Shown piece by piece: positions 2,942-31,702 of a DNA stretch of 64,000 bases. The notes beneath the pieces are model-generated. The model was given only the letters and a program-made list of their open reading frames with translations. It ran no database searches and was not told where the DNA came from. Position 1 is the first letter of the stretch, and each line of letters starts with the position of its first letter. Origin of the DNA: Arion vulgaris (lineage: Eukaryota > Mollusca > Gastropoda > Stylommatophora > Arionidae); contig CM036755.1 in the NCBI GenBank assembly GCA_020796225.1, forward strand, positions 85,445,803-85,509,802, given 5' to 3'. Position numbers and translations under genes: made by a program.

Positions 2942-2968
2942 GAGAGTGGTTAAATTCAAAGATTGCAC
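2942..2968 (+). CDS. Micro-exon 1 (27 nt), encodes EWLNSKIA
   Basis: The acceptor is a T-rich tract ending in TTTGTGTGTAG and the donor is GTAAGTAAC. Read with two leading bases that finish the previous codon, it gives E-W-L-N-S-K-I-A plus one base C. Frame 0 hits TAA at the fourth codon. It is the only clean copy ending in Ala rather than Gly. Joined to micro-exon 2, the split codon is CTT (Leu). Confidence 0.8.
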
Positions 2969-4079
2969 GTAAGTAACTACGTTCAAATCTTATGTCTGTG
3001 ATAATATGTGTTAAGTGTAGGAATATTTTCAATAAATGCGATTACGAGTGTTTGTATTTCTTAGTGTGTATTAAGAAAACAAAGTTGTGGAGATAGGACG
3101 GATATCATGTCCGTCGCCTAGTCTCTTTTCACCTCATCTAAGAACATGGCTTAAATATTTCCACCTTTGTTTCCTTATAATATTTGAAACGAATTATTGT
3201 TGAGATCTAACTCTCAGTGCATTGTTCGAAACGAAATCACTCCATTTTACATTTAATCATTTTCGGAAACATTTATTCTCATAGCTGTCCAGTTTCTTTT
3301 CAATTTATATCCCTAGATCAGTAGAGGTTAAGAAAAATCCTCTGTTTCCGAAATACTAGGGTTTTCACGATTGAGAATTATTAGGCCTCAGATCAACCGA
3401 CCACACACAGCAAGAACGAAGAAAATAACACCTTCCATCTTGAAACCGGAACCGGTAAACTCAAACCGGAAAAACCATTGTTTTCATAGCATAACATATT
3501 TTCCAATTATAACAGAATATATATTACTATGATGGTCATATCGTTCAATCAATCATTCAATCAATAGTAATGGTGGCTAATTTTACTAATTGTACTTATA
3601 GCATAACATATTGTCCAATTATAACAGTATTCACTAAACATTATCAAACATCAAAGTCAAGTATGCTCTGATCGGTTTTGTCTATATTATTATTTAACTA
3701 GATGTTCATTCATGACATCTTCATTACTAGTTATTCCATATTTGATGTTTAATGTGTAAAATAAAGATATAATAGTTAAACATTTAACCAAAATCATCAT
3801 CATCAGTTAGAATTCTACTAAACTCTTTCTGTTAATATACCTTCACTACAATGATATTTGTCTACTCAGTTGTAGAAAACAAAGAAGGAACATCCAAGAC
3901 GAACTTACATTAAGTTATATATTTGAGAGAACACAGCGAGAGAACGTGATAAAGATTATATATATATAGATTGTCTTACAAGTATCGTCAGACACTGTCA
4001 AATGTAATCATATCATTGCGTCAGTAGATTACATTTATTTCTGTGACATATATACATATTTTATTTCTTTACTTGACAG
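2969..4079 (+). other. Intron 1 of the micro-exon gene
   Basis: 1111 nt, GT...AG. It contains a local direct duplication: AGCATAACATATT(T/G)TCCAAT followed by TATAACAG, at about 3487 and 3599. No ORF or RNA gene was recognised. Confidence 0.7.
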
Positions 4080-4106
4080 TTTTGTGGTTGCACAATTCAT
4101 TAGGAC
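4080..4106 (+). CDS. Micro-exon 2 (27 nt), encodes LWLHNSLG
   Basis: The acceptor is TTTATTTCTTTACTTGACAG and the donor GTAAGTAAC. Phase 1 at both ends. The open frame reads L-W-L-H-N-S-L-G plus C. Frame 0 ends in TAG. The split codon into micro-exon 3 is CAA (Gln). The preceding intron is only 1111 nt, the shortest in the window. Confidence 0.85.
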
Positions 4107-4864
4107 GTAAGTAACTTTACATATCCAGTTTGTTTGTTGCTCATAGTCTTTGTTTGTTTATGCAGAAAGTTTTCAGAGATGTCATTACTTCAACAAAAAT
4201 ATTTTGTTAACAAAAGAAAAGTTTAGATACAGATAAAAATAGTCTACTCAGTCCAAAATTTGCCATGTCTACAGACCCTACTATCTAAACTGTGCAAGCA
4301 GCGCATGCTCGTCTTGCAGTCGATACTGCCTATCAAAATGATCCATCATCATCATCCAAAAAACAGCTTTCCTAGATGCTCGTAGAAGGGCTCAAGAGAG
4401 AATCAGGAAATTACAAGACGTCTGGCTAAGCAAAAAATCTGATGAAATCCATGATGACAGACATGATTTCAAACGCTTCTACGATGCCCTAAAAACTGTT
4501 TACGGACCTCAACAATCTCACCCCACTCCCATACTCGATGCAGATGGAGCAAGGCTACTAATTGACAAGCCTCAGATACTAAATCGCTGGGCAGAACACT
4601 TCCGTTCTGTCCTCAACCATCCATCCACTATATGTTATGAAGCCATAGAGCGCATGCCCCAGGTCCCAATCAATGCCAAGCTTGATATCCCACCTACCTT
4701 AGCAGAGGTCAAGAAGGCAACAAGCCAGATGTCCAGCGGAAGGCACCGGGTGCGGACTCAATACCAACCGAAGTCTACAAAGAAGGAGGGCCCACGTTGA
4801 TGCTAAAATTGACAGTTATTTACATCCATTTAGTGCAACGAACGTGTGCCACAGGAATTAAAGG

Positions 4865-5395
4865 ATGCCACTATTGTCCACCTGTACAAGCGGAAAGGAA
4901 ACCACCAGGCCTGCGATAATCACAGGGGATCTCCTCCTGTCAATCGCTGGCAAAATACTGACCAGAGTCCTCCTCAATCGATTAATCGATCACCTGGAAC
5001 AGGACTTACTCCCTGAGACCCAATGTGGCTTCAGAGCAGGTCGTGGAACAGCAGACATGATATTTGCTGCTCGCCAACTACAGGAGAAATGCCAAGAGCA
5101 GCACCGTAACCTCTATATGGTCTTTGTCGATCTCACAAAGGCTTTCGACACGGTTAACAGGGAGGGTCTATGGAAGATCATGGAAAAATGTGGATGCCCA
5201 GGGAAATTCATCAAGATCGTCCAACAGTTTCACGAGGGCATGATGGCACGTGTACTTGACGAAGGAGAGCTGTCGGAAGCCTTCCATGTCACCAACAGCG
5301 TCAAACAGGGCTGTGTACTGGCCCCAACACTCTTCAGCATGATGTTTGCTGCCATGCTCACGGATGTCTTTTGGGAAGGCGACGAACATGGGTAA
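4865..5395 (+). pseudogene. LINE A RT fingers/palm, first half
   Basis: 176 codons open. It carries RT blocks with RLIDHLEQDLLPETQCGFRAG, VFVDLTKAFDTVNREG (first catalytic Asp) and VTNSVKQGCVLAPTLFSMMF. The frame runs off at an inserted T in GTCTTTTGGGAAGG; copy 2 has GTCTTTGGGAAGG. The ATG at 4865 is not a real start because the domain begins upstream. Confidence 0.88.
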
Positions 5396-6240
5396 AGATT
5401 AGATACAGGACAGACGGTAACCTATTCAATCTTCGGAGGTTAAAATCCTCCCCCAAAGTAAAAGAATCAACTATCTCAAACCTGTTGTTTGATGATGACT
5501 GTGCCCTCGCTACCAACTCTGTGGAAGAAATGCAGACTTACATGGACAAGTTATCAATGGCCTGTGATAGGTTTGGCCTCACCATTAACACCAAAAAAAC
5601 AGAGTTCATGTTCCAGCCCGCCCCTAGAGAACAGTATTACGATCCAGTCATCAACATTAAACACCAGCGTCTCCAGTCAACGGACAACTTTGCTTATCTT
5701 GGCAGCCTCCTATCCAGATCGGCAAACATAGATTCTGAGGTCCACAATAGGATATCCAAAGCCAGTGCTGCGTTGGGAAGGTTACGTGTCACTGTGTGGG
5801 AACGGAAGGGGATAAGCATAGTCACAAAGCTGAAAGTTGACCAGGCCATAGTGCTAACCACGCTGCTGTACGCAAGCGAGACATGGACAGTGTATAGCAG
5901 ACACGCAAGAAAATTAAACCATTTCCACACAAGCTGTCTACGCAGAATACTAAAAATAAACTGGCAGGACAAAATTCCAGACAGCGAAGTCCTCACAAGA
6001 GCAAAGATCCCAAGCGTCAACACCCTGTTGCAGAAGGCCCAACTGAGATGGGTCGGTCACGTTGCTCGAATGCCTGATAAACGCATCCCAAACCAGTTGA
6101 TGTATGGCGAGCTTGAAGGGGGCAGACGTTTAGCTGGTGGACAGAAAAACGCTTTAAAAGACACTCTTAAAGTGTCTCTGAAATGCTTTCATATAGACAA
6201 TAGGTGCTGGGAATCCCTTGCGCAAGATCGCCAAATGTGA
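5371..6240 (+). pseudogene. LINE A RT palm/thumb, second half
   Basis: 289 codons open. LFDDDCALA stands at the catalytic F/Y-A-D-D site, so the Ala is replaced by Asp. It is followed by MDKLSMACDRFGLTINTKKTE, AYLGSLLSRSANID, LLYASETWTVYSRHARKLNHFH, LRRILKINWQD and RWVGHVARMPDKRIPNQLMYGEL, the usual C-terminal sequence of such LINEs. The downstream frame shifts before the zinc-finger tail. Confidence 0.88.
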
Positions 6241-6345
6241 CGCTGTAACAACAAAAGAGGAACCCGAATACCTGAGAATCATCGTATTGTTGAGTCACAG
6301 AGAAAACGAGCAGCGCGAAAAGACAGAGAACACAACACGCACATG

Positions 6346-6456
6346 TCTAACCTTGATCATGTATGTCCCACCTGTGGTCGGGGATTCTGTTCTAGGATTG
6401 GACTCTACAGTCACCTCCGCACACACCAGAGAGGTGCAACAGTATACGTCTGAGAT
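6346..6456 (+). pseudogene. LINE A C-terminal C2H2 zinc finger
   Basis: In one frame it reads HVCPTCGRGFCSRIGLYSHL followed by RTHQRGATVYV and TGA. Cys-x2-Cys and His-x3-His are all present. Many animal LINEs end with such a finger; a role in nucleic-acid binding is presumed. Confidence 0.8.
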
Positions 6457-6492
6457 TGTTGTCATCATCGCTTGCGATGGACGGCTATTATT

Positions 6493-6600
6493 ATATACTG
6501 TCTTATTATGGAATACCAGGAAATGAAACAGCAGAACGACTGGCTAAGGAAGGTGCTGCAGGAGAGCAACCGAATGTGCCAGTTCCCTACCAATAACAGA
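6493..6600 (+). mobile_element. LINE B fragment, end of RNase H
   Basis: Frame from about 6501 gives SYYGIPGNETAERLAKEGAA then GEQPNVPVPYQ, the GIxGNExADxLAKxGA block of LINE RNase H domains. It starts right at the 3' end of LINE A copy 1 and stops at 6600. The next part of this element seems to resume at about 9335. Confidence 0.75.
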
Positions 6601-6978
6601 AAATATATCCATAATTGGGATATATAAATTGGAACTAAAATATTGTATATGTCCGATTCTTTTTGGGTTATTGAGTGGACAATTACTTTAATTTGCTTGA
6701 GTTTCTGAATTGATGACTCAAAGATGTAAAATATTTTGAACTGTAATTTATTCCTTTGGGGGGTGAAAGTTGGATCATAATGGTGGGTTCGAGACTAATG
6801 TTAAGCCAGATACAGAAAATATTTGGGTTTTTGGTCGGGTCCTTTGTGTATGAAGGACGCATTGTACTTCCTCATTTATTGATGTTATCTGATATTGAGC
6901 CCGATAAGTAAATCTCTTGGGAATTGGCTTGATTCCTTGTGGGTTTTGGACGGGTTGTAATTGTAATATTACCTGTCG
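6601..6978. other. Unassigned AT-rich spacer
   Basis: No coding or RNA signal recognised. It separates the two halves of LINE B and leads into the 90/34-bp minisatellite. Confidence 0.4.
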
Positions 6979-7850
6979 TTCTATATTGTAGAGTCAAATA
7001 TTGAGTATTATTTGACTCTGTTTGATTGTTGAACAGACAATGAAGTCTCATTGACTTCAATGTTCTATATTGTAGAGTCAAATATTGAGTATTATTTGAC
7101 TCTGTTTGATTGTTGAACGACAATGAATCTCATTGACTTCAATGTTCTTATATTGTTGAAGTCAATATTAGTATTATTTGACTCTGTTTTGATGTTGTTG
7201 AACAGACAATGAAGTCTCATTGACTTCAATGTTCTATATTGTAGCAAGTCAACTATGTGAGTATTATTTGATCCGTTTGATTGTGAACAGACAATGAAGT
7301 CTCATTGACTGAATTGTTGAACAGACAATGAAATCTCATTGACTGAATTGTTGAACAGACAATGAAATCTCATTGACTGAATTGTTGAACAGACAATGAC
7401 ATCTCATTGACTGAATTGTTGAACAGACAATGAAATCTCATTGACTGAATTGTTGAACAGACAATGAAATCTCATTGACTGAATTGTTGAACGGACAATG
7501 AAGTCTCATTGACTGAATTGTTGAACAGACAATGAAATTTCATTGACTGAATTGTTGAACAGACAATGAAATCGCATTGACTGAATTGTTGAACAGACAA
7601 TAAAATCTCATTGACTGAATTGTTGAACAGACAATGAAATCTCATTGACTGAATTGTTGAACAGACAATGAAATCTCATTGACTGAATTGTTGAACAGAC
7701 AATGAAATCTCTTTGACTGAATTGTTGAACAGACAATTAAATCTCATTGACTTCAATGTTCTATATTGTAGAGTCAAATATTGAGTATTATTTGACTCCG
7801 TTTGATTGTTGAAAGGACAATGAAATCTCATTGACTTCAATGATGACTAC
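6979..7850. repeat. Two-level minisatellite, 90-bp units enclosing 34-bp units
   Basis: About four 90-bp units (starting TTCTATATTGTAGAGTCAAA) at 6979-7290, then about 13 units of 34 bp (TTGAACAGACAATGAAATCT and onward) to about 7745, then one more 90-bp type unit. The 34-bp unit is the inner part of the 90-bp unit, so it was amplified later. Some 90-bp units carry small insertions. Confidence 0.93.
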
Positions 7851-8460
7851 TATAGGTAGAATATTGTGGATTTTACATTGCAGATATTTGATGTATTTGG
7901 GATGTTAATTTATTCCTTTGGAAGTTGTTGGGTGGATGTTAAAGGCATCATGAAGGTTATATGATGTTGATCCAAATGTTGGAGGTTTTAATAGATTAAT
8001 TGTGTTTTTTGTGTGGACTTGCGTCTGGGAGACGTGATCCCAATCTATGATGGATGAAATATGTAAAATATTGAAAATTTCCTTGGCTTCTATGACAGAT
8101 AGTGGAGCGAGGCTGCTTTTTGGGAGTTCATTATTCCCCTGGGATTGGGGGTTGGTTAATATTACCTCATGGAGGTCTGATAATGTTGATTTAGACATTA
8201 TCGTTGAGAATTCCTATATTGTGAATTTCATTGCTTTCTATGACATATAGCAAAGCAATGTGGAATCTTGGTTTGTTCCTTCCCCGGGATTGGGGGTTGG
8301 TTGTTATTACCTCATGGAGTTCATATACTGTTGATAGTTTAAACAGTATATATATTTTTTTTTCATGTCATATTCTGGTTGTAACTTGTTTTTTTTTGAG
8401 ATTCAGATTGCATGACAAGACTCTGACGAGCAAGAGCGACATAGAGACATGACAGTTAGT
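7851..8460. other. Unassigned sequence with a short internal duplication
   Basis: CC(C/T)GGGATTGGGGGTTGGTT is followed by A or G, ATTACCTCATGGAG and more, at about 8136 and 8283. This suggests an old tandem duplication of about 145 bp. No domain is seen in its ORFs. Confidence 0.45.
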
Positions 8461-9080
8461 GTGAGATGCCCCTCGTCCATCCTACGACATGTGAGGACGG
8501 GATGTCGACGTACAGCCTCCTCACATTAACCTACGGGTTGGTTCCCACTGCCTGGAGCAAGTGATATGCTGTTGAGTCACATTAAGAAACATGTGGCGTC
8601 TATTTCATGTTATTCCATACATTTTTGCTGACTGCATTTTGGATTAATACTTTGTTTCAGCATTAAAGCACAGAGGGTTTACTGTTGTTGTTAACCATGG
8701 TCACCTATGACCAGTTGACGAGTCACGTTTCACGACGTGTGGTGACTTGTTCCCATTTAGCTCATTCAACTTGGCTCTCCTGAGATCCCGTCAGGATTTT
8801 CCTTATTTTCGACCATGGTTGGCTGTTGTAGATTAGTTGTTGTTGAGCCACGTTTCGCGACGTGTGGTGACTTGTTGCCATTCAGCTCGGACAACTATAA
8901 TAACCCTGATGGACTCTAACTGTGCACATATGAGGAAATTTCACCGTCGTGTCGACAGCGAGGTCTCCAGGGGGTGTAGTAGCCAGTCCCCCACCCCCAT
9001 GTGGTAGACAGTAGACCAGACAGGTAGTTTTAGTCTGTAGTTTGTAGCAGTAGATTTTTAATTAGCAGAGACTTAGTGTT
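8461..9080. repeat. Unclassified repeat-like segment with direct duplication
   Basis: A 60-bp block is present twice (about 8715 and 8836), both with CGACGTGTGGTGACTTGTT. GC content is higher than the flanks, with CGTCGTGTCGACAGCGAGG and a C-run CCCCCACCCCC around 8990. It may be part of a non-autonomous element inserted in LINE B, but no ends were found. Confidence 0.4.
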
Positions 9081-9097
9081 TGCACTCTCCAAGCAGA

Positions 9098-9334
9098 ATG
9101 GCAACACTAAAACGAAACACTGACGTAGGGAAACTAGTTGACGCAGTTTTGTGTAGTAACGGGAAGACCGATATAAACAAGACTGAGAAGCGGACGTGTT
9201 TTGTCCAATCATGCAATAAAGACACATATGAAGCCTTTCAGACAGTGTTTGGGCTTTGTAACATCGGCTGTACCAATCATCACCTTCATTACTACAACAA
9301 TGTGGTACAAACATCATCAACAACTACAAAATGA
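9098..9334 (+). other. Unrecognised ORF, possibly part of the same insertion
   Basis: About 79 codons from ATG at 9098 (MATLKRNTDVGKL onward), with several Cys and His near its end but no known spacing. It ends where LINE B coding sequence restarts. Weak evidence for coding; I do not recognise it. Confidence 0.25.
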
Positions 9335-9650
9335 TGATTAAATCAATCAGACAGTCACAAATACCAACACAAAACGACTATTATAATATGAGCAGATTGA
9401 AACAAGTTGTCATTCTACGCCTTATAACAGAGCACAATCGACTCCGCACCCACATGTATACATAATTCAAGATTGGTAATTCAGCAATGTCTACATGTGT
9501 ACATGCACATCAGACTGTAGAGCACATACTTCAAGACTGTCCCGACTATGATATACTGAGGCAAACTTACTGCCGTAATGAAACACCACTCGAAACAGAA
9601 AACTACACGGGCATCTGTGTGAGCTACAAGGGAAAGTGAAGTTTATATAT
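9335..9650 (+). mobile_element. LINE B fragment, C-terminal zinc-knuckle region
   Basis: Translation gives VVILRLITEHNRLRTHMYT, a stop, then FKIGNSAMSTCVHAHQTVEH and ILQDCPDY. This is the FRLRTGHNRLxxHM...C-x-C...EHxLxDC region that follows RNase H in I/Jockey-type LINEs; LINE D has the same at 18.8 kb. An in-frame TAA makes it a pseudogene. Confidence 0.8.
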
Positions 9651-9919
9651 GAAATAACATGGAATATATAGGCAATATTTCAAGCGAACGAAAAGATGGA
9701 AGGAAGGATACAAGTCTTCCATCGCAAGCTATGATGACATCAAATAACGAAGTGTGGTGTTGCCCATCTCTAGTGTGTGCGGAAGTTAATGTGTAATTAA
9801 CTACTGGAATACAGTCCACTTCCACTTTTGTGTATACATGATCAAAGTTGAACATGTGTGTGTGTGTTGTTTCTTTACGATTACTCTACGTCTCAGCAGT
9901 ACGACAATTCTTATCTACT

Positions 9920-10235
9920 TGAGAGCATCCTGTGTTGTTGCAGTGCTACATTTGGTTATCTTACGCTAGCAGTTACCAGCTACTTGAGAGCATCCTGTGT
10001 TGTTGCAGTGCTACATTTGGTTATCTTACGCTAGCAGTTACTACTACTAGAGCATCCTGTGTTGTTGCAGTGCTACATTTGGTTATCTTACGCTAGCAGT
10101 TACCAGCTACTAGAGTTCATCCTGTGTTGTTGCAGTGCCACATTTGGTTATCTTACGCTAGCAGTTACCAGCTACTAGAGTGCGTCCTGTGTTGTTGCAG
10201 TGCCACATTTGGTAAACTTACGCTAGCAATTACCA
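9920..10235. repeat. 63-65-bp minisatellite, 5 copies, derived from LINE A
   Basis: The unit contains TGTTGTTGCAGTGCTACATT followed by TGGTTATCTTACGC. The same stretch of LINE A (reverse complement) reads TTGTTACAGCGTCACATTTG then GCGATCTTGCGC. So one LINE segment has been tandemly multiplied in place. Confidence 0.85.
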
Positions 10236-10549
10236 GTAAATGTTATCTATACCGCAACCTTTTAGAGACACTCCAAGAATTTCTTTTATGCGTTTTGCAT
10301 ATTCACTAACTGATCTTGTTGTCCCCTTCAAGGTTGCCATACACCAACTGTTTTGGGATTTGTTTATCAGGCATGCGAACAACGTAAAGGCCCATCTCAC
10401 TTAGGGCTTATGTGACTGGGTGTTGACGATTTAAATATTAGTTTTCATAAAGCCTTCTGGGTCTGAAATTTGGTTATGTCAGTTTATTTTGTGTAATCTG
10501 TGTCGACATCTTGTGTGTAAGTTGTTTAGTTTTATTGCCTCTCTTCAAT

Positions 10550-11400
10550 ACACTGGTCATGTCACACTGACGTACAACAGTGTGGTTGGTACAATGAACA
10601 TGTCTCACTGACGTACAACAGTGTGGTTGGTACAATGAACATGTCTCACTGACTCAACAGTGTGGTTGGTACAATGATCATGTCTCATGACGTACAACAG
10701 TGTGGTTGGTACAATGATCATGTCTCACTGACGTACAACAGTGTGGTTGGTACAATGATCATGTCTCACTGACGTACAACAGTGTGGTTGGTACATTGAT
10801 CATGTCTCACTGACGTACAACAGTGTGGTTGGTACATTGATCATGTCTCACTGACGTACAACAGTGTGGTTGGTACATTGATCATGTCTCACGGGAGTAC
10901 AAAGTGTGGTTGGTACATTGATCATGTCTCACTGGAGTACAACAGTGTGGTTGGTACATTGATCATATCTCACTGGAGTACAAAAGTGTGGTTGGTACAT
11001 TGATCATGTCTCACTGACGTACAACAGGATGGTTGGCACATTGATCATGTCTCACTGGAGTACAAAAGTGTGGTTGGTACATTGATCATGTCTCACTGAC
11101 GTACAACAGGTGGTTGGACATTGATCATATCTCACTGGAGTACAACAGTGTGGTTGGTACATTGATCATATCTCACGGGAGTACAACAAGTGTGGTTGGT
11201 ACATTGATCATGTCTCACGGGAGTACAACAGTGTGGTTGGTACATTGATCATGTCTTCACTGGAATGTATGCAACAGTGTGGTTGGTACATTGATCATGT
11301 CTTACTGGAGTACAAAGTGTGTTGGTACATTGATCATGTCTCATGAGTACAACAGTGTGGTTGGTCCATTGATCATGTCTCACTGGCGAACACTAGTGTG
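10550..11400. repeat. 41-bp minisatellite, about 20 copies, derived from LINE A
   Basis: The unit is CATGTCTCACTGACGTACAA followed by CAGTGTGGTTGGTACAATGAT. LINE A (reverse complement) at this position reads CATGTCTCGCTTGCGTACAG then CAGCGTGGTTAGCACTATGG. Later copies drift (ACGGGAGTAC, ACTGGAGTAC), showing subfamily blocks along the array. Confidence 0.88.
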
Positions 11401-11654
11401 GTTAGTATATTGACCAAGTAAACTTACAGCAGGCTGAAGAGTGTTGTGGCTGGTAATCTTCCGATGTTGACACCTTAGTGTCATGTAAGAAATGCTGTAC
11501 CTACCCACTAACAAATAAACTTACCATCATGTACTCATTAAACTGTTGAACGATTGTTTAACAACTCATACGATCATCGATGTAGTATATGTCCTACTTA
11601 TTATTATATTTACCAGAGTATTTTTTCCAGAGATTCCTCCAATTGTTGATTTAG

Positions 11655-12150
11655 TAAACCACCAGTTTAAGTTGTCCGTTTTTCTTTGTTCTAGACTATA
11701 TCAAGTTCTCTCTGTCCACCAGTTTCAGTTGTCCGTTTTTCTTTGTTCTAGACTATATCAAGTTCTCTCTGTCCACCAGTTTTAGTTGTCCGTTTTTCTT
11801 TGTTCTGACTATATCAAGTTCCTCTGTCACCAGTTTCAGTTGTCCGTTTTCTTTGTTCTAGACTATATCAGTTCTCTCTGTCCACCAGTTTCAGTTGTCC
11901 GTTTTTCTTTGTTCTAGACTATATCAAGTTCTCTCTGTCCACCAGTTTCAGTTGTCCGTTTTTCATTTGTTCTAGACAAGAGCAAGTTCTCTCTGTCCAC
12001 CAGTTTCAGTTGTCCATTTTCTTTGTTCTAGACTGTATCAAGTTCTCTCTGTCCACCAGTTTCAGTTGTCCGTTTTTCATTTGTTCTAGACAAGAGCAAG
12101 TTCTCTCTGTCCACTTTTTTCATTTGTCCATTTTTCTTTGTTCTAGACTA
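11655..12150. repeat. 57-bp minisatellite, about 8 copies
   Basis: Units start TTGTCCGTTTTTCTTTGTTC and include AGTTCTCTCTGTCCACCAG. The last copies diverge. The array ends 70 bp before micro-exon 3; its pyrimidine-rich strand is the plus strand of the intron. Confidence 0.93.
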
Positions 12151-12219
12151 TAGCAAATCTTCATATCAGATTACTTATTCCAATTTTAAACAAATATTGT
12201 TTAATGTTTTTATTATCAG

Positions 12220-12246
12220 AAACGTGGCTACAAAGTGAAGACGGAA
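12220..12246 (+). CDS. Micro-exon 3 (27 nt), encodes TWLQSEDG
   Basis: The acceptor is TTTTTATTATCAG and the donor GTAAGTAGC. The frame reads T-W-L-Q-S-E-D-G plus A, with Leu as CTA instead of TTA or TTG. Frame 1 contains TGA. The split codon into micro-exon 4 is AAA (Lys). The 8.1-kb upstream intron holds LINE copies and four minisatellites. Confidence 0.85.
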
Positions 12247-12530
12247 GTAAGTAGCGGGATACATGCAATGAATTTGTTAATCGTAACGTCTTTGTTATGT
12301 TAAAGAATGTGATGTGATATGTAATCATTAACATAAGTGTATTAGTGTTTGTAAAGATAGAATTCTCGTTGAGGAAACTGTAACAAATAGAGTGGTTGTC
12401 AACCAGCTTGTTGTTGTATATCTAGTGTCAAGTTAAGAAGTTGTCCATGAATTGTCTACTTTTATTATATCAGTTTTAAACGAACCTCACCTACATATAT
12501 AAGAATACGTGCGTTCACTCCCAGCAGACA

Positions 12531-12665: not shown

Positions 12666-12683
12666 ACTACTTGACATGTGATA

Positions 12684-13550
12684 ATGACATCTACCTTGGA
12701 CATAACCAGTTGGATGAAACAGAAGGAATATATCTTGGACATAACCAGTTGGATGACATCTACTTGACATAACCAGTTGGATGACATCTACCTTGGACAT
12801 AACCAGTTGGATAACATCTACCTTGGACATAACCAGTTGTATGATATCTACCTTGGACATAACCAGTTGGATGACATCTACCTTGGACATAACCAGTTGG
12901 ATGACATCTACCTTGGACATAACCAGTTGGATGACATCTACCTTGGACATAACCAGTTGGATGACATCTACCTTGGACATAACCAGTTGTATGACATCTA
13001 CCTTGGACATAACCAGTTGGATGACATCTACCTTGGACATAACCAGTTGTATGATATCTACCTTGGACATAACCAGTTGGATAACATCTACCTTGGACAT
13101 AACCAGTTGGATGATATCTACCTTGGACATAACCAGTTGGATGACATCTACCTTGGACATAACCAGTTGGATAACATCTACCTTGGACATAACCAGTTGT
13201 ATGATATCTACCTTGGACATAACCAGTTGGATGACATCTACCTTGGACATAACCAGTTGGATGACATCTACCTTGGACATAACCAGTTGGATGACATCTA
13301 CCTTGGACATAACCAGTTGGATGACATCTACCTTGGACATAACCAGTTGTATGACATCTACCTTGGACATAACCAGTTGGATGACATCTACCTTGGACAT
13401 AACCAGTTGGATGACATCTACCTTGGACATAACCAGTTGGATAACATCTACCTTGGACATAACCAGTTGGATGATATCTACCTTGGACATAACCAGTTGG
13501 ATGACATCTACCTTGGACATAACCAGTTGGATGAAACAGAAGGAATATAT
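12684..13550. repeat. 30-bp minisatellite, about 28 copies
   Basis: The unit is ATGACATCTACCTTGGACAT followed by AACCAGTTGG. 25 exact-length units run 12781-13530, with only a few variant positions (G/T before ATGA, C/T in GACATC, G/A in GGATAAC). A variant unit containing ATGAAACAGAAGGAATATAT flanks the array on both sides. Because 30 is divisible by 3, long ORFs appear on both strands; these are a consequence of the period, not genes. Confidence 0.97.
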
Positions 13551-16511: not shown

Positions 16512-16538
16512 AACGTTGGTTAAAGCAAGCAGATGGAC
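16512..16538 (+). CDS. Micro-exon 4 (27 nt), encodes RWLKQADG
   Basis: The acceptor is TTTATTTTTGTTTGTGTGCAG and shares the TTTGTGTG(C/T)AG wording of micro-exon 1. The donor is GTAAGTAAT. The frame reads R-W-L-K-Q-A-D-G plus C. Frame 0 hits TAA. The split codon into micro-exon 5 is CAA (Gln). Confidence 0.87.
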
Positions 16539-22540: not shown

Positions 22541-22559
22541 GGTAGCTACGTTACACTTT

Positions 22560-23500
22560 CAGTGCCGTTTTGAGCTCTGGTGCTTATCTTTCGGACGTGT
22601 ATCCGTTTTCAACCAGCTTTTGCACGGTTCGCTCTCCGTTAGCCTTTGACTGTCCCCAACCAAAACTCACAAGGCAGCGAGTTGCCATTTTCTTTCAGGG
22701 CTGCTACCCTTAGATGACCTGCCCTCCCGGGCTTATGAGCGTCATCTTCCCAACGAACCGGTCGGTTTTTCTGAACACATTGGTTCGTCACTCGTTCAGG
22801 TTTTTTTACGGTTTGCTCCCTAGCCTTTGTGTACCCAACCATGACACCACAAGGCAGCGGCAGTTCCCTGCGAGAGAACAGAGCTATGTTTCATGGGACG
22901 CTTTCGTAAGACTTTTTATTTGCGGTCTTTGGTCAGGAAATGTGTGTATTTTCAGGGACTTCCAGTCTTCTGCATTGCAGCGACCACTATTTTGTGGGGG
23001 ACTCACGTACTCTACTGTTTCGTACTTTTGGAGCTCAAGCGTATTTTTGCGGTCTTGGGCCAGGAAATGTGTGTATTTCAGGGATTTCAGTCTCTGCGTT
23101 GCAGTGTCCACGATTTTGTTTGCGAGGCGTTCGTACTCTGCTATCTCACAGTTCTTTCTGAGTATGGACATATATTTTGCGGACTTCGACCAGGAAATGT
23201 GTGTTATTTTCAGGGAGTTCCTTTCATGCGTTGCGTCTCTAAGCTCACACTATCATCACAGATAATTTCGCACGCTGCTGTTTCGTGCCTATTCGTAGGA
23301 CAATCGGCCAGGAGATGTGTGAATTTTCCATGGATTTTCGGCCCCTGCTTTGCTTTCACGGTCTCCCGATCCTCTCCTTTAGCCAGACCGGAACCTAAGT
23401 CTGTTTCCAGGGTCACCGCGTGGAGGTTTTGGGCAGGGTCTGGTTGCGCCCTTCGCTAACCCTGGCTCATTTTCCGCCGTGAACATGAACCTTTGACCCC
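22560..23500 (-). other. LINE D ORF1-like region with about 125-bp internal repeats
   Basis: Four imperfect repeats are marked on the plus strand by (C)AGGAAATGTGTGTATTT at about 22934, 23060 and 23190 and a weaker one near 23308. On the minus strand they give related peptides such as KIHTFPDQRPQ and KYTHFLAQDRK. This is where ORF1 (a gag-like protein) is expected, but no zinc knuckle is clear. Confidence 0.45.
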
Positions 23501-23634
23501 GGATCGTGTCATCCATTGAACCTCGACTGATTGAATGAGCCATTCGCGGTTTCACCGTGAGACAGTGTGAACTTAGACATGCATGGCTTAATCTTTGAGA
23601 CAAGCATATGACTACTGGCAGGATCAACCAGATA
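23501..23634 (-). rRNA. 18S rRNA 5' fragment (134 nt) fused to LINE D
   Basis: On the minus strand it begins TATCTGGTTGATCCTGCCAG and continues with TCATATGCTTGTCTCAAAG, the universal start of eukaryotic 18S rRNA. It runs through GTTCACACTGTCTCACGG and GAATGGCTCATTCAATCAG to ACACGATCC. It then leaves 18S sequence abruptly and enters the LINE. Not a functional rRNA gene. The wording is lophotrochozoan, gastropod-like by memory. Confidence 0.93.
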
Positions 23635-24158
23635 GCTGTCATGGACGAGACTGGACCGACAATGCTCGGGGTAGGAGACAGCGCTCTGTGCAGAGCGAAT
23701 CCCGACGTCCCCGGCGAAAATGCGAAATTGAAGTGAAACGACCGAGCGCTCGCTTCCCAGTTTTGCCGGCAAGACTTGCGCCTCGCCAAGCAAAGAACGA
23801 CACCATGTTACTACAGGCTCGTTGCGAGAGCCGGGCCTTTTAACGAGACCACCGTCGAGCTTTTAAAATTTTAGACTGACTGCATCACATCGCGACCGAG
23901 AAACCCCGATATACGGACACACACACACCACCAATAAGACCCGCGCGCGAGCGAGCGAGTCTTAATAGCAGAAGCTACCTTGTCCCTTATTCCCTGGGAG
24001 CCTCGTTCGCGTGAAAAAGCGAGGAGGCACGCGCAGCCGTTAGAGACTAGGCACGCAATTGGTTATCGACACTGGGGAAACGCGTTCGCTGACTGGCTCG
24101 CCTGTCCGGTTATTTTCAAAACGGGGAGGCACAGTTTGCAGACGCACAACCCAGATTT
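23635..24158 (-). other. Probable rDNA external transcribed spacer joined to 18S
   Basis: About 520 bp directly upstream of the 18S start, GC-rich with GCGCGCGAGCGAGCGAG, unlike the AT-rich neighbourhood. Contiguity with the 18S 5' end makes it the 5' ETS of the same transcript. It ends at the Helitron junction (CCACAAAAATC on the minus strand). Confidence 0.7.
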
Positions 24159-25690
24159 TTGTGGATTGCATGAGGTAATAAGAATGATGAAAATTGATCT
24201 GATCTTTTGTGGTGATTCTGATGCAACTATTTCTGCCATCGTAGCATGCCATTGATTGTCGTCCTCCAGTAAATCAAGTTTTTGGCATGCTTCACGGAAT
24301 GTTGCACAAACTTGACCCTCAAACCGTCTTTAATTTAGTAAATGATATTAGAACTCTAACGGTATGAAGTAGGATGCGGAGGTAGAAACATTCGAAATTA
24401 TTTGGATGAACAGTATAAACACGTCCTAAAACATCGCTAGATTTAACTCCATCGAACCCAACAACTGTGACTCCTTGCTTTCTTCTATTAAAAGCTTCCC
24501 TTTAAACCCATCCCATGTGTAATATTTAGCAACTTCAAAGTAAAGTAAAGTCTTTGCAAAGTCGTCATTTTTTACAAAGCTAAAAAAAAGCAGTTAAAGT
24601 TGTTCTTGGAGGTTGCTGAACTCTTTGTTGGAAATTTTCTGTATTGAAGTAAATCTCTGTCTGTTTTCAAGATGAACGCTCAGTTGCATTACGGAGGGAT
24701 ATCTCTCATGAACGGGAAATCCCAATATCCGCCAAACTGCTTCATTTCTGCTGATGTAGCGGCCAGCACGATAACCTTCTATTTCATCAATCAATTCTCC
24801 ATCTTTTGAATGCCAAACACAGCTTGATCAGAACCTTTGTGTATGTATTTTAACACATATTTGATCTATTTTACTGAATTGCAGTACTCAACATTAATAT
24901 GTGCATCAAACATTCATGACAACATTGGGCATTACGGAACAATCCATCTATTGTCGATGTTAAATTCAACTGAACTATTTCCTCTCTTAAGTTTCTTGTT
25001 GCTTCGAATCTTCCATCAGCTAACTTTCTTCGATATAGTGGATAGCCATCTTCTCCAGTTTGAGTTTCGAGCAACAGACTCTTCGGATATCGTTTGGTAC
25101 ATTTGCCTTCCTTCATACATGAGGAATTCGATTGATGTATCCACATGGTCCATGCATCATTTGTTCTATAACGGTTTTATGTAGTTGTGGATCTAAGTTC
25201 GGATCAGGAATCTCCGTCCTAATAATGCGATCAATATTATTTGGGTCAATCTTCTTTAATAACCAAAATAATAAATGGTTATGTAGCAAACCCCGTTTCT
25301 GCCATTCTGTTGAAGACACCCAACATCTACAGGACCAAAGATCTCTCCCTTCGTTATAAGTTGCATGAATTTAATTAACTTTTGACGAAACACACGAGCA
25401 ATTAGATCATGTTTATCCAAATGTGACTGTCCTGGTAGTAATTCATCTTGTATTTCTTTCCATTTTGGGTTACATGTAAACGTTATGAAGAGATCAGGTT
25501 TTCAATAATTGCAAACATAAGTAATCGAATCTTGGGTATATTCATGCATATACCGCGGACCTCCGGTAAACGTTGATGTCAAAATAACCAACCTGCCATG
25601 GTTGTTTGCCTGGTCATCTATCGCAAATAGCATCCCTCAAATGAACATATTCTTCTGAACGTAGTTTTGTTTGGTTCAATCGAATATAGA
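24159..25690 (-). pseudogene. Helitron Rep region with H-x-H and tyrosine motifs
   Basis: Minus-strand blocks: EWQKRGLLHNHLLFWL (H-N-H, the HUH metal site; 25113-25319), GPCGYINR plus SCMKEGKCTKRYPKSLLLET and DGYPLYRRK, then KYVLKYIHKGSDQ (two Tyr, about 24850), EIEGYRAGRYISRNEAVWRI and HERYPSVMQLSVHLE. Downstream FREACQKLDLLEDD leads to ITSCNPQ at the LINE D junction. Several indels break the frame. Functions by family: nicking and rolling-circle transfer. Confidence 0.88.
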
Positions 25691-26165
25691 GCAATCTTTC
25701 GCATTCTTCTTCTTCTTCTTCAGCGATCTCTGGTCATGCGCTTAATTTACTGTGGACCACAAACTGGGCAGACAGCTTCAGGTCTGTCAGGTTTCCCAAA
25801 GCTTAGTTTTCAGGTCGACTGGGTGTGGCCACATGTTGCTTCTCAGCTCACACAAAAGAGGACAGTCTTGCAGGATATGCTCTGGTGTCTGTTCTGCCTG
25901 CTGACACGGGCAGAGAGCTGTTTGACTTATTCCTAGTCTGTATAAGTGTTTGTTGAGTCTGCAGTGTCCGGTGCGTAGTCGAAATATCTCTTGGATACAG
26001 CAGATGTCAATCTTTTCTGCTCGCAGACGTTCCTCTAGCTCTCGTTTTTGTTGGTTACCCCTTCTGCATTCCATTGCATAATTGTGAGGGTGAAAGTTTG
26101 TCCTTGCTGCCAGTAGTAATACCCTGTCCTCCCTGGCTTTGCAAGAATCAACAGGGCCGCCAGTA
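25690..26165 (-). mobile_element. LINE E, internally deleted copy
   Basis: A single minus ORF (25787-26074) runs from an endonuclease start (ECRRGNQQKRELEERLRAEK then IDICCIQE) directly into the RNase H-distal tail (IFRLRTGHCRLNKHLYRLG, CPCQQAEQTPEHILQDC). More than 3 kb of RT and RNase H is missing at the join. The 3' tail matches 12531-12665. It is inserted in the Helitron. Confidence 0.85.
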
Positions 26166-26295
26166 GCTAAGGGTGGACCCTTCGAAAATATCTACCAAAA
26201 TTGATGGAATAATTGGCGACAACTTGGTGATTTGAAATATCTCTGATCATGATTCGAAATGGTAGAAATCCTGTAAAGAAAAAACTTGTTTGAAA

Positions 26296-26607
26296 TCAAT
26301 TTAGTGACTGGATCCTTTTATTGATGAAAATGTAGTAGCCGTCTTCACCCTGATGAAATATAATTGGATACTGAAGGCATCGTAAAATCTGTGTGTTTAT
26401 GAAATTCGTTGCAGCTTGTTGTCTCGTATTTGTAAAATTATGTCCGCTTTCCAAATCATTTCTTGCTATGATAATGGCAACTTCGTTTACTACAGGTGCA
26501 TTATAAGTCCGCTCATGTTGGCCAGTCGGAACTATGTCAGCATGGATTGCAATTTTCCTGTCGTCAGTGGGCAACTGATCTAATACAGTCTTGAAGCTTC
26601 TGGACAT
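26296..26607 (-). pseudogene. Helitron N-terminal domain
   Basis: 103 codons: SRSFKTVLDQLPTDDRKIAI, HADIVPTGQHERTYNAPVVN and EVAIIIARND are characteristic of the Helitron_like_N region before Rep. The protein goes on near 25640 after LINE E (GGPRYM region) with frame changes. Confidence 0.88.
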
Positions 26608-26650
26608 AACTTTGCAAAGTGTGTAGCATACGTTGAATAGCTAATACTGT

Positions 26651-27560
26651 ATTGTGATTAGTTCCTAGATTACAATTGATGCGCTGATTTGCCTCAGCTT
26701 TTCATTACCATAAAATAAATTTGAAGAAATTTTGGGTCTGACTGAATTTGGATTCTGGACTGACTGTAGAGTTTTTTGTTCTTAAAGTGGCATTGCATAT
26801 AATGAATATTTTAACAATAACATTAACAATGACCAGTTGAATTTTAACAAACACGCAAACCTAGTATTTATCTATTTTCAAATGGAGAGTTTTACTTGAC
26901 ATTGACATTTTCCGTAGTTGAATAATCTGTTGAGTGCAGGAAATGACAATGCGGATCTTAGCGCATTGCGTATATGAGCACATGAAATGATGACGCAATG
27001 TTTGGTATCGGTCAACTTAGTAAATGTATGCAAATGTAGTGGTCACGGTGGTGATAAATTGGTTTTGAAACGAATATTGATTCGATTTCAAAATTCTTTC
27101 CACTGTTAATATAATTTTTATTCGCATGCATGTTTTTACCTATTGTGGTGATTGTTCATCAAATTGAGGTCAGCTTGTTTGAACAATCAAATGAGGATTG
27201 TTATGCTATGAAAGAGGTCGAGGTTTCCATAGTTTTAAAATATACGTCATCGAATCTTGTGTATATATTAATGTTACCTCTAAGACTTACGACAAATTGT
27301 GAACAAAATTGGATAGGATAGCAAACTTTGGTTTTAAATTATTTAAAAAACTAATATTGATCCGATTTCGAAAATCTGTCCACTGTTAACCTTATTTTGG
27401 TCTCGTGAGTGTTTCTGCCAACTTTGGTGATTTGTGGATGTAAACTGACGGCGTGTATAGTGAGACACACACACATATTTTGCAAAATATAGTATAGATC
27501 CCGCAATGATATTGGTACATCTTTTGTAAAATGAATGAAAAAACAAACCACAAGACAGGT
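26651..27560. other. Helitron 5' flank or intron, with a 110-bp duplication
   Basis: Two related blocks: 27060-27170 and 27335-27445 share AATATTGAT(T/C)CGATTTC then TCCACTGTTAA and a later TGGTGATT. They may belong to the Helitron 5' end, which I could not place. Confidence 0.45.
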
Positions 27561-27595
27561 TTGTATTAAACATTTCTAAAATTAACATGTTTAGA

Positions 27596-28250
27596 GTAAG
27601 AGATAGAAAGAGACAGAGAGAGACATCTAGAGACATATAGAGAGAGAAAGATATAGAGAGAAAAATAGAGACAGATATAGAGAGAAAAATAGAGACAGAT
27701 ATAGAGAGATAGAGTGAGAGACATACAGAGAGACTGATAGAGACAGATATAGAGAGATAGAGTGAGAAACATACAGAGAGAGACCGATAGAGACAGAGAG
27801 ATACATATATAGAGAGACATACATAGCAACAGGCAGGGTGACAAAGAGAGAGACAGATAGAAACAAATATATAGACATATATAGGTACATAGAGAGAGAG
27901 AGAGAGAGAAAATAAGGAGAGACATAAACGTTAAGAGACACAGACAGAGATGCAGGGAGAGACACAGAGAGACAGAGGCATAGAGAGTGACAGTGAGATA
28001 CATTTACATAAGAGATCGAGACAAACTGAGAGACAGTGACAGAGACAGACAGAGAGAGACATAGATACAGTGCTAGACATTGACAGAGGAAGCGCGAGAG
28101 AGAGGGAGAGACAAACACAGACAGAGGGGATACATAGAGAGACAGACAAATAGCGACAGCCAGAGAGAGAGAGACAGAGACAGACAGAGAGAGACAATAC
28201 CGAGAATGAGACAGAGAGAGAGAAGAGAGGCGAGAGATAGAGAGAAAGGG
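27596..28250. repeat. GA/GACA-rich low-complexity tract
   Basis: Purine-rich strand made of AGAGAGACA and GATAGA units over 650 bp. The Ser/Leu-rich and Arg/Glu-rich ORFs across it are products of the simple sequence. Confidence 0.95.
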
Positions 28251-28311
28251 ATGGATTACATAGAAACATTGCTACAAGAAAATATTTAACATTCGCTACA
28301 TTTCTCTAGAA

Positions 28312-28545
28312 AGCCGCTGTAGCGTAGTTGTTAGTGAACTCGCTTCGCAAGGCTGGTTGTCTGGGTTCAGCTCCCGCAATGCACGTGGAATTTTTCCCGA
28401 CCGCGACGGCTCTCAGGTCGACCAGCCTCAACTGGGTACCAGACATGCTCTGGGAAAGTAAAGGTGGCCGGTGTGATGCTGACCACATCACCCATCGTGT
28501 GCCGATGGTCAATGAAAATACAGACCTAACACTGTATTGACCTAT
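28312..28545 (+). mobile_element. tRNA-derived SINE, family S2
   Basis: Head with A-box-like TAGCGTAGTTGTTAGTGAAC and B box GGGTTCAGCTCCC, typical Pol III spacing, then a unique body and a tail ending ACACTGTATTGACC. Different body from S1. Confidence 0.75.
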
Positions 28546-28594
28546 ATACCACGAGTTATGAAAGGGTTCCTTTACTCTTTCTTTTTACTTACAT

Positions 28595-28985
28595 TTCTCA
28601 CATTGACTAAACAACTTACACGTGAGATGTTGCATGTAATGTACATTTCATATCTCACACTGACTAAACAACTTACACGTGAGATGTTGCATGTAATGTA
28701 CATTTCATATCTCACACTGACTAAACAACTTACACGTGAGATGTTGCATGTAATGTACATTTCATATCTCACACTGACTAAACAACTTACACGTGAGATG
28801 TTGCTTGTAATGTACATTTCATATCTCACACTGACTAAACAACTTACACGTGAGATGTTGCATGTAATGTACATTTCATTCTCACATGACTAAACAACTT
28901 ACACGTGAGATGTTGCATATAATGTACATTTTTCACATTGACTAAACAACTTACGCGTGAGATGTTGCATATAATGTACATTTTT
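28595..28985. repeat. 57-bp minisatellite, about 7 copies
   Basis: The unit starts TTACACGTGAGATGTTGCAT and ends ACTGACTAAACAAC. It ends 20-30 nt before micro-exon 5, so the array directly abuts its polypyrimidine tract. Confidence 0.95.
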
Positions 28986-29009
28986 TTGTTTCCTTGTTGT
29001 TTTCTTCAG

Positions 29010-29036
29010 AATCATGGTTAGACGGTGGCGAAGGAA
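29010..29036 (+). CDS. Micro-exon 5 (27 nt), encodes SWLDGGEG
   Basis: The acceptor is TTCCTTGTTGTTTTCTTCAG and the donor GTAAGAAAT, the only clean donor that is not GTAAGT. The frame reads S-W-L-D-G-G-E-G plus A. Frame 0 hits TAG. The split codon into micro-exon 6 is AAT (Asn). The upstream intron of 12.5 kb carries the Helitron and LINE D. Confidence 0.87.
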
Positions 29037-29224
29037 GTAAGAAATGAAATATGTTTAGTTAATTGTGATAATTGCATTAGTTGTTTGTTAACAGAAGCGC
29101 TTGATACGAGTAGATGTGATTCTTGGTTCTTGATTTTCTTAACATTTGTTAACAGAAACGCCCTTGTGGTAACATACAAAGCATGTCGTAACTGGCGACT
29201 GAGTTAAGGGTCTAGGAAAAATAC

Positions 29225-29355
29225 ATTAGTAAATAAAAAGCATCGCAGAAATCGGATGTGTTGGCCTACTTGTTTGCGCATAACTTGCACAACACACAAT
29301 CGCTCTTAGGCTCAGATCACATACAAATCACACAGAGTGATGAACAGGTGTTCGT
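29225..29355 (+). repeat. Dispersed repeat V, copy 2
   Basis: Matches 30765-30900 in inverted orientation (AGAAATCGGATGTGTTGGCC; CATACAAATCACACAGAGTG) and the short copy at 2308-2372. Confidence 0.85.
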
Positions 29356-29384
29356 TATGGAGCATTCAGAAGAAAGAAAACGAG

Positions 29385-29612
29385 GGGAAATTAACAGAAG
29401 AAAGTTGTGAAGTTAACAGAAGAAAGTTGTGAAGTTAACAGAAGAAAGTTTGTTGAAGTTAAGCAGAAGAAAGTTGTGAAGTTAACAGAAGAAAGTTGTG
29501 AAGAGATAGATAATAACTTGAAGTTAACAGAAGAAAGTTGTGAAGAGATAGATAATAACTTGAAGTTAACATAAGAAAGTTGTGAAGAGATAGATAATAA
29601 CGTGAATGAACA
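29385..29612. repeat. 22/45-bp tandem array
   Basis: The unit is GAAGTTAACAGAAGAAAGTT plus GT. Later units are joined by GAAGAGATAGATAATAACTT, making a longer period. Confidence 0.93.
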
Positions 29613-30089
29613 TTGAAGTTTTTGTCGTCTGACTTATCGTTCTATACTTGGAGACTGTACTTACACGGAACACTAAAACACAAACAAACATACATCTTGT
29701 AGTTGTTGTTATCTTGTCACAGTATATAATCTACATTTCTAGTTTCAAGTTTGGTACTCAGCAAATGAATGGAAAACAAAATCCACGTTAAATCTCTGTG
29801 AAATTGTGTACGCAAAAGATTAGGAAATATCAAAATTGAAATCAAATATCTGATGGTATTACATAAGTTGTTTATCAGTTACACTAGTAATTCATTTCTA
29901 TATTTACCTTCTCAATGTTAACGTACACTTGACTACGTGATTGTTTTACAAGAGAACAACTTGGGATATGCTACAATCACAGTCACTGGATCGCATGTAT
30001 TAAACAAATAAAACATTTATGTACGCAATAACAAGGATGTATATGAAGTGGACGTATCAAGATGGAAAAGCGATGATTTGCAGATAAAC

Positions 30090-30485
30090 GTTGTTATAAT
30101 ACATTCATCAACACCCTTTGTTATCGTTATTGTATATTCATCAACACCATTTATTATCGACATTGTATATGCATGCATACCCTCTGTTATCGTCTTCATA
30201 TATGCACGCATACCCTCTGTTATTGACATTACATATTCATCAACACCCTCTGTTATCGTCATTATATATACATGCATACCCTCTGTTATCGTCTTATATA
30301 TGCATGCATACCCTCTGTTATCGTCTTATATATGCATACATACCCTCAGTTATCGTCATTATATATGCAATTTTTGCATACCCTCCAGTTATCGTCTTAT
30401 ATATGCATGCATACCCTCAGTTATCGTATTATATACCTCCATACCTCAGTTAGTCATTATATATGCATGCATACCCTTCATGTAA
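30090..30485. repeat. About 30-33-bp minisatellite, about 12 copies
   Basis: The unit contains ATGCATGCATACCCTCTGTT then ATCGTCTTATAT. Unit length varies. Overlapping ORFs in three plus frames come from the period. Confidence 0.92.
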
Positions 30486-30541
30486 ATGAAGAGTAGATTT
30501 CTCCAGAAGACAAAGAATTATTAAAACATGATGAAAGTAAC

Positions 30542-30542
<1 letters not shown>

Positions 30543-30582
<40 letters not shown>
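30543..30582. repeat. GT microsatellite
   Basis: About 19 GT units. Confidence 0.97.
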
Positions 30583-30583
<1 letters not shown>

Positions 30584-30764
30584 TGATTTCAATGTAAGAG
30601 GAAAACAGTAGGAAAATAATGTTACCATTAGAATAGGAGAATTAATTGAATGCTGTATTGTCAACGGCAGAATTCGTATGCCTTAGTACACGACAAGCAG
30701 CCAAGTTGGTTAAATGATTGGCTGAATGAAATATCATCTTCATCTTCAAACGCTCCATATCGAC

Positions 30765-30900
30765 TCCTTGTTAACCACTCTGTGTGATTTGTATGAGATA
30801 TGAGCTTAAGAACAATTGTAGGTTGTGCCAATTATAGAAGTAGGCCAGCATATCCGATTTCTGGAACGACATTGCTAATGCAACGATAAGTCACACTATA
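30765..30900 (-). repeat. Dispersed repeat V, copy 3
   Basis: Inverted relative to copy 2. Just upstream, CAGCCAAGTTGGTTAAATGA (about 30691) resembles a tRNA-like A-box region, so V may be the body of a SINE. Confidence 0.75.
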
Positions 30901-31430
30901 TGTATATTATCATATGAATGTATACGGCGTTTTTTGTTTGTATAGTCTGTCAGCTGGCAGGTGTTTTACTATGACAACTTGTCATGAGTTTGAGCTTGTC
31001 TTGCCTTTCAGCTCATTCTCAAGTCTATTTTCACAAGATTATGTTCAGGTGTGAGTGTTTAGTATTGTTTTCAACATTACTCGACATCGGCTAGTGTGTA
31101 CCATATGTTAGGACCAAAATAATTATTCTTCATTGAAATCTTAAAGGCATCATTATATCCTAACAATGAAGCCTTATTCCTTCTTACAATTAACAGACCA
31201 GTACATGGTGGTGTATGTGGTTGTTTTCATTCTTAACACATGTTCGATAGATTAAAACCTGCATCTACATTGTTAATGTTGTGTTGTTCTACACACTATT
31301 TGATAATTGTACTATCATAATTAATATAAATCTAACAATTGAAGCTATTAATAGCAAGGTGAACACTGTTACTATTAATAACACAGCCATTATTGACAAT
31401 ATTACTGAAAAGGTAAACATTGTCTCTAAA
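30901..31430. other. Intron sequence, nothing recognised
   Basis: AT-rich DNA. The minus ORF at 31289-31501 is hydrophobic but built from the short repeat that follows. Confidence 0.45.
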
Positions 31431-31525
31431 TGTTTAGAAATGTCCACAGTGTAACTATTAATAGAAACGCCCACACTGTAGTTATTAATAGAAACGCCCA
31501 CAGTGTAACTATTAATAACAAGGAC
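31430..31525. repeat. Short tandem, about 30-bp units
   Basis: ACTATTAATAGAAACGCCCA then CA(G/C)TGTA, 2-3 units. Confidence 0.75.
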
Positions 31526-31675
31526 AATATTATAAGCATGTCAACTATATCGTTATTACTATAAACATATTTAAACTATTGTTATCAGTTATCGATGTTT
31601 ATAGTTGTTAAATGATAACAAATTAGTCAAACCATCACTGTAGCATTTATTTAATATGTTTATTTTATTTTGTAG

Positions 31676-31702
31676 ATATTTGGCTAGTAAGTAAGGAAGG
31701 CG
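31676..31702 (+). CDS. Micro-exon 6 (27 nt), encodes IWLVSKEG
   Basis: The acceptor is TTTATTTTATTTTGTAG and the donor GTAAGTAGC. The frame reads I-W-L-V-S-K-E-G plus G, with Leu as CTA. Frames 0 and 1 contain TAG and TAA. An internal GTAAGT at 31687 could act as an 11-nt alternative donor, but 27 nt matches the family. Confidence 0.83.

Follow-up and report, generated by a model that had tools for sequence, protein, structure and literature searches.

A probable family of very long secreted-protein genes with repeated 27-nucleotide micro-exons in the slug Arion vulgaris

We analysed a 64,000-nucleotide stretch of the genome of the slug Arion vulgaris (GenBank assembly GCA_020796225.1, contig CM036755.1, positions 85,445,803 to 85,509,802 of the forward strand; hereafter the window), in which six predicted exons of exactly 27 nt encode short peptides built around a Trp-Leu pair. 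These exons probably form the repeat region of very long genes for secreted proteins, a family present as at least two tandem copies (sets A and B) and an inverted set (set C). The exon length, splice signals, reading frame, motif, colinear copies and an upstream exon of 145 or 148 nt whose copies differ by an in-frame indel can be read directly from the DNA. All positions below are relative to the window; those that are negative or exceed 64000 lie beyond its ends on the same chromosome.

Length, frame and motif of the micro-exons

The original prediction described a chain of six 27-nt segments, each between a pyrimidine-rich AG acceptor and a GTAAG donor, and all six were present where it had put them: EWLNSKIA at 2942..2968, LWLHNSLG at 4080..4106, TWLQSEDG at 12220..12246, RWLKQADG at 16512..16538, SWLDGGEG at 29010..29036 and IWLVSKEG at 31676..31702, all on the forward strand. 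The peptides are indeed read in a common frame (offset 2), which has a stop in none of the six exons, whereas frame 0 is interrupted in five and frame 1 in two, in agreement with the claim that each of the other frames has stops in at least two exons. The donor extends to GTAAGTA in five of the six, the exception being 29010 (GTAAGAA); the last exon base is G in five and A in the first (2942), and the introns between the units are 1.1–12.5 kb long. The string AG-N27-GTAAG occurs eight times on the forward strand of the window, and the two additional occurrences (32597, 49392) have neither the motif nor a pyrimidine tract. Within unit 31676–31702, GTAAG also occurs 11 and 15 nt into the exon, and shorter variants could arise from its use there. 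The flanking introns had been said to share nothing; this is correct among the window units, where comparison of 827-bp stretches gave no match covering an exon, but not outside the window, where copies with matching flanks were found.

The 27-nt length stands out in a scan with a generic splice grammar that was not trained on the units (YAG acceptor, at least 10 pyrimidines in 15, GTAAGT donor, lengths of 9–120 nt). On both strands of 284 kb, 12 of the 45 candidates were 27 nt long, as compared with a mean of 0.30 at each of the 111 other lengths, and over 294 kb the count was 12 of 47. With a looser donor (GT[AG]AG[TA]), 14 of 171 candidates had this length, other lengths averaging 1.41 and the runner-up, 40 nt, reaching 8. 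An aromatic residue followed by Leu or Ile at codons 2 and 3 was encoded by 11 of the 12 candidates of 27 nt in the 294 kb, versus 7 of the 35 at other lengths; five of these seven corresponded to the units themselves, either read differently or in damaged copies (31676, 55744, 158489, 185988, 217028), and two were unrelated. When splice sites were scanned after training on the units, without any term for length or content, 14 of 16 cases were 27 nt long, a partly circular result. A genome scan with a 26-nt exon pattern gave 19 matches versus 31 for the reversed control, that is, no enrichment at 26 nt, and exposed the cluster member at 217028. It is exceedingly improbable that the units are a chance or repeated DNA motif with no coding role: apart from the weakness that short motifs have in general, nothing speaks for this, and it is opposed by the agreement of length, frame and motif in 11 of 12 cases in the untrained scan and by the lack of shared flanks among the window units.

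Units beyond the window were found with a matrix built from the six (next 200 kb, plus 20 kb upstream); the next 10 kb and 9 kb more upstream contained no further ones. After exclusion of eight damaged or atypical units, described below, 17 intact units were counted. Position 2 is W in 15 of them, F in one and Y in one; position 3 is L in 16 and I in one; position 8 is G in 16 and A in one. The absence of stops from the 17 is partly by construction, because the unit at 166824 was excluded for its stop, which does not apply to the window six. All intact units fit phase 1-1, and therefore any subset of them preserves the frame. The codon at each junction is made of the last base of one unit and the first two bases of the next, and over the 289 ordered pairs of the 17 units it most often encodes R (70), Q (48) or K (36), so that the extended motif of a unit is x-[WFY]-L-x4-G-[often R/K/Q]. 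Ser or Thr make up 19 of the 136 unit residues.

Colinear sets and predicted upstream exons

The chain of equal-length coding micro-exons proposed originally is supported, and is strengthened by the copies outside the window and by an upstream coding exon. Its extent had to be revised: the window six are real, and the chain is longer, with a start upstream of the window, a tandem duplicate and some members in inverted orientation. Set A consists of TWLLTRAG at −7659 and EWLKQSKG at −4154, followed by the six window units, all on the forward strand. Set B, also forward, comprises TWLLTRAG at 140696, KWLKTKDG at 144608, DWLKSEIG at 151045, LWLENEGG at 179166 and SWLNEPDG at 185988. Set C is on the reverse strand, with AWIGQTDG at 263330, LWLTEPDG at 259023, TFLLSSVG at 236959 and WYLHIEPG at 230591. 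A and B, the latter about 148 kb downstream, are colinear with matching introns, in the order T, E/K, E/D, L, T/L, R/S by first residue. Within this alignment, 2942 is matched by 151045 (flanks 86.8% identical over 258 nt), 4080 by 158489 and 170841 (both 25 nt), 12220 by 179166 and by 166824 (in-frame stop), and 16512 by 185988, with a weaker 63-bp match to 151045; no flank-matching copy was listed for 29010 or 31676. Micro-exons in B, damaged ones included, are about 4–8 kb apart, and an internal tandem duplication of about 12.4 kb (157191–181924, 92.3% identity) bears damaged units.

Three places at the end of A, at 54.2, 55.6 and 65.9 kb, have counterparts in set C, in reversed order on the opposite strand. 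At 54408..54434 (forward) lies a degraded or mis-assembled unit, VFIIKKDG, with no GT donor, which matches the surroundings of the intact reverse-strand unit 236959 (TFLLSSVG) at 80.8% over 364 nt. The unit at 55744..55769 (forward) has good splice signals and is 26 nt long, one base less than its copy 230591 (WYLHIEPG). Besides these two, the excluded units are 158489 and 170841 (25 nt), 166824 (stop), 217028 (26 nt), a garbled unit near 66000, and 74596, which is open (HWFNTDLY) and is without the L and the G. Set C may be a gene of its own, or it may be the end of B in inverted orientation; it is also possible that it derives from a flipped contig.

A block 9 kb further upstream of A has a single match, which lies ahead of B. 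Comparison of A and B gave a predicted coding exon 2 on the forward strand, 148 nt long in A (−26753 to −26606) and 145 nt in B (135340–135484). The two are 69% identical in protein, differ by a 3-nt in-frame gap and run from phase 0 to phase 1, and the phase-1 donor is compatible with the micro-exons. The 16 nonsynonymous and 7 synonymous differences between them (pN 0.143 versus pS 0.220) suggest mild constraint. When the forward strand from 66 to 135.3 kb was searched for initial exons with a phase-0 donor, 19 rows were obtained, of which the most hydrophobic (3.07) was a candidate signal-peptide exon, MSGTYLKLLVSCLLVMFISTTWTYNLEPAYSTDDGQSDDLDVDK, at 109036–109167 in B. It has an acceptor-like TTTATTTAG before it, a start, and a phase-0 donor, GTAAGA, after it. 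In the hydrophobicity scan the candidate signal peptide, MSGTYLKLLVSCLLVMFISTTWT, was seen in copy B only. A stricter scan of 303 kb, on both strands and in all phases, left four signal-peptide candidates, among which 109036–109167 is the sole forward-strand, phase-0 one. Two other options for the 5′ end were tried: none of 16 candidate signal-peptide exons ending in phase 1 was accepted, and a 102-bp conserved block (−5916/143743) was rejected as a first exon, having stops just upstream and substitutions that, by eye, are spread over the codon positions.

The order in copy B would then be the signal-peptide exon (109036–109167), the 145-nt exon (135340–135484) with its dibasic pair, and the 27-nt exons. 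Presumably these exons are spliced together, and the signal-peptide exon presumably belongs to the same gene. The product of B would be a secreted protein composed of a signal peptide, some 70 residues and then the WL units. The predicted conventional exons of B amount to about 92 codons, compared with five intact units there. Inclusion or skipping of any micro-exon would lengthen or shorten the protein by nine residues, x-[WFY]-L-x4-G plus the junction residue, with the frame intact, and the number of units may be varied by alternative splicing.

Such a product could also be a peptide precursor, from which the signal peptide is removed and which is cut at dibasic sites so that the WL region or pieces of it act as peptide messengers. 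The candidate signal-peptide exon fits a prohormone, as does the dibasic pair at the same place in exon 2, which is conserved although one residue differs (KR in A, RR in B); KK at the presumed junction of exons 1 and 2 would be a further dibasic site. The units themselves end in G, and the junction codon that comes next encodes K or R in 106 of the 289 ordered pairs. Which residue stands at the junction is, however, determined by the order of splicing, and in the other 183 pairs it is one other than K or R; there is therefore no regular cleavage site between units. In addition, genes of at least 77 kb with many exons are unusual for prohormones. We consider a prohormone unlikely.

Gene ends, damaged units and divergence between copies

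The observations that weigh against a secreted-protein gene family with variable repeat exons concern the ends of the gene, the condition of some units and the divergence between copies. The exon joins are inferred from the DNA. The candidate signal-peptide exon could be a chance open frame, since it is single-copy, has no conserved partner and is one of four candidates left by the stricter scan: no second copy was found in the fetched DNA, upstream of which a counterpart in A would lie. The search of the flanking contig suggested by the original prediction was productive for further units and candidate 5′ exons, and not for a last exon: comparison of the sets gave no matches between A and B, 17 between A and C and none between B and C, the 17 being transposon-like by eye. 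The T unit (−7659, 140696) has the donor GTCTGT instead of GTAAG in both copies. If read on past the donor, TWLLTRAG continues as GGL and then a stop codon, which is TAG in A and TAA in B. This unit may be an alternative last exon.

The same observations bear on the view that a larger structural or extracellular protein, with its remaining exons beyond the 303 kb fetched, uses the units as cassette micro-exons, and that the signal-peptide exon is a chance frame. In favour of this are the failure to find a 3′ end, a T exon that runs straight into a stop if read on, and a signal-peptide exon seen in one copy only. Opposed to this, no conserved conventional exon besides exon 2 was noticed in the set comparisons, and the long open frames (at least 100 residues, among those listed) are transposon-like by eye. 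We regard a larger protein of this kind as rather improbable.

Copy B contains three damaged units. Together with the 26-nt units 55744 and 217028 and the weak T donor, the 25-nt units 158489 and 170841 and the stop in 166824 might indicate a decaying array, that is, a micro-exon gene that once worked and is now mostly pseudogenes duplicating with their introns. Yet all six window units are open and have GTAAG donors, the indel in exon 2 is in frame, and 17 units are open overall, two of which (the T units) lack the GTAAG donor. Moreover, three of the damaged units (54408, 55744 and the one near 66 kb) sit in a stretch that looks error-rich, and some of the damage may stem from the assembly. 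We consider decay of the array unlikely.

We compared exon and flank identity between copies by Fisher tests, with p values uncorrected for multiple testing. In the intact pair 263330/259023 the exon has 19 of 27 positions identical as compared with 191 of 200 in the flanks (p 1.7e-4), and the 22 bases preceding the exon are identical; its eight full codons have seven nonsynonymous and no synonymous changes, with one more change in the split codons. The other intact pairs give no such signal. The exon is not accelerated in 2942/151045 (p 0.56), −4154/144608 (p 1.0) or 12220/179166 (p 0.14), the difference is in the opposite direction in 16512/185988 (p 0.02), and −7659/140696 are identical across the 27 nt. 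Pooling six intact pairs gave 27.2 nonsynonymous changes at about 112 sites and 2.8 synonymous at about 32 (p 0.086, not significant). The exon also diverges in damaged or noisy pairs: 166824/179166 (p 0.006), 158485/170839 (p 4e-9, in a comparison that starts four bases ahead of the exon and includes indels) and 54408/236959 (p 0.004). Exon identity in other such pairs was 18/25 (4080/158485), 15/25 (4080/170839) and 20/27 (55743/230591). Selection on protein does not explain the divergence of damaged pairs, which may owe something to local mutation, conversion or alignment. Diversifying selection is therefore a lead, visible in one intact pair.

Comparison with known systems and genomic surroundings

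The joined peptides had no match at E ≤ 10 in a collection of 5.8 billion proteins (proteins of 0.55–1.75 times the query length being considered), and nothing significant in Pfam, NCBIfam or PDB (best E 0.56). Rfam gave nothing at the gathering threshold for the window, for 14 loci or for 20 loci. The five sequence matches in PDB were lipases, which we take to be of the RTX type, with non-significant E values of 4.2 to 9. The nine-residue period, the glycine and the hydrophobic position recall the RTX beta-roll; this is bacterial, its nonapeptide is GGxGxDxUx, which x-W-L-x4-G does not fit, and the best PDB sequence match has E 4.2.

Exons of this kind have been described in schistosomes. In the polymorphic mucins of Schistosoma mansoni (SmPoMuc), exon 2 is a repeated 27-bp exon (PMC2576457) encoding nine residues, with up to about 20 repeats near the 5′ end of the gene, and the genes are clustered (PMC2576457, PMC4015677). 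Exon and introns repeat there as units of about 1 kb, the intron part being more than 94% identical, with GA microsatellites between them (PMC2576457). In antigen 10-3 (MEG-4), 27-bp exons are subject to alternative splicing (PMC4015677). The coding region of micro-exon genes (MEGs) consists mostly of tiny symmetrical exons (PMC4350168), and their products have signal peptides and are secreted (PMC5825161). Micro-exon genes also occur in other organisms, S. mansoni being unusual in that such exons form up to 75% of the coding sequence (PMC4015677).

The predicted slug exons share with SmPoMuc the repeated 27-bp length. They differ in that the slug units are not carried on near-identical exon-plus-intron repeats of about 1 kb, being 1.1–12.5 kb apart with no common flanks, and in that they are not rich in Ser and Thr, whereas Ser/Thr-rich repeats are the criterion for a mucin. 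With MEGs they may share the tiny symmetrical design, the 17 intact predicted units in three sets all fitting phase 1-1, and a signal peptide; of the longer exons that flank MEGs at both ends, candidates were found at the 5′ end, and comparison of copies gave no 3′ exon. Unlike those of MEGs, the slug exons have one length and one motif, the organism is apparently a gastropod, and no sequence relation was detected in the protein searches. The best reading by analogy is a gene family built like the schistosome MEG and SmPoMuc genes, for which no sequence relative was found. The architecture is known in kind from flukes and, going by the DNA, it is real and unusual and apparently now present in a slug. 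Among the literature matches listed there was no report of a micro-exon family in a gastropod or other mollusc: none of those listed for gastropods contained the term micro-exon or microexon, and those listed for molluscs dealt with flukes, vertebrates, plants and other subjects.

It is possible that the W-L faces of the units bind something extracellular while the other positions diversify, as in a protein of defence or surface recognition. A conceivable extension, which we hold to be rather unlikely, is that gastropods, the hosts of schistosomes, independently evolved the schistosome device, a hypervariable secreted protein put together by splicing from interchangeable 27-nt exons, with tandem arrays, exons outpacing introns and a repertoire particular to each animal. 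If the cluster is transcribed, it would be a schistosome-type micro-exon family in a gastropod, whose uniform length and motif would make it a simple system for exon shuffling by splicing; it would also help to decide whether such genes are a speciality of parasites or a general means of varying a secreted repeat protein. Annotation easily misses 27-nt exons amid introns of several kb, and therefore similar families may exist unseen elsewhere.

The window is rich in transposons. Ten of the 40 open frames of at least 120 residues were scanned, and eight matched models of reverse transcriptase, endonuclease-reverse transcriptase, RNase H or PIF1 helicase, three of them below the Pfam cut-off; the remaining two matched nothing. 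The stretch from 46000 to 64000, and on to about 84000, looks error-rich by eye, being rich in poly-A/T, with inflated homopolymers and broken frames of long interspersed elements (LINEs). The published Arion vulgaris genome is reported to have been assembled from Nanopore reads with wtdbg2 (PMC9392753). Residual Nanopore errors, as in poorly polished contigs, would explain the broken stretch at about 46–84 kb, and the unit damage there may be an artefact. Between the units, minisatellites are abundant (37, 34, 41, 57 and 39 bp), in addition to a 30-bp one of 26.8 copies at 12734–13534 that has several open frames on both strands. Further downstream, at 188967–195982 on the reverse strand, there are, by eye and among the frames listed, repeated Helitron-like helicase open frames that form an internal duplication.

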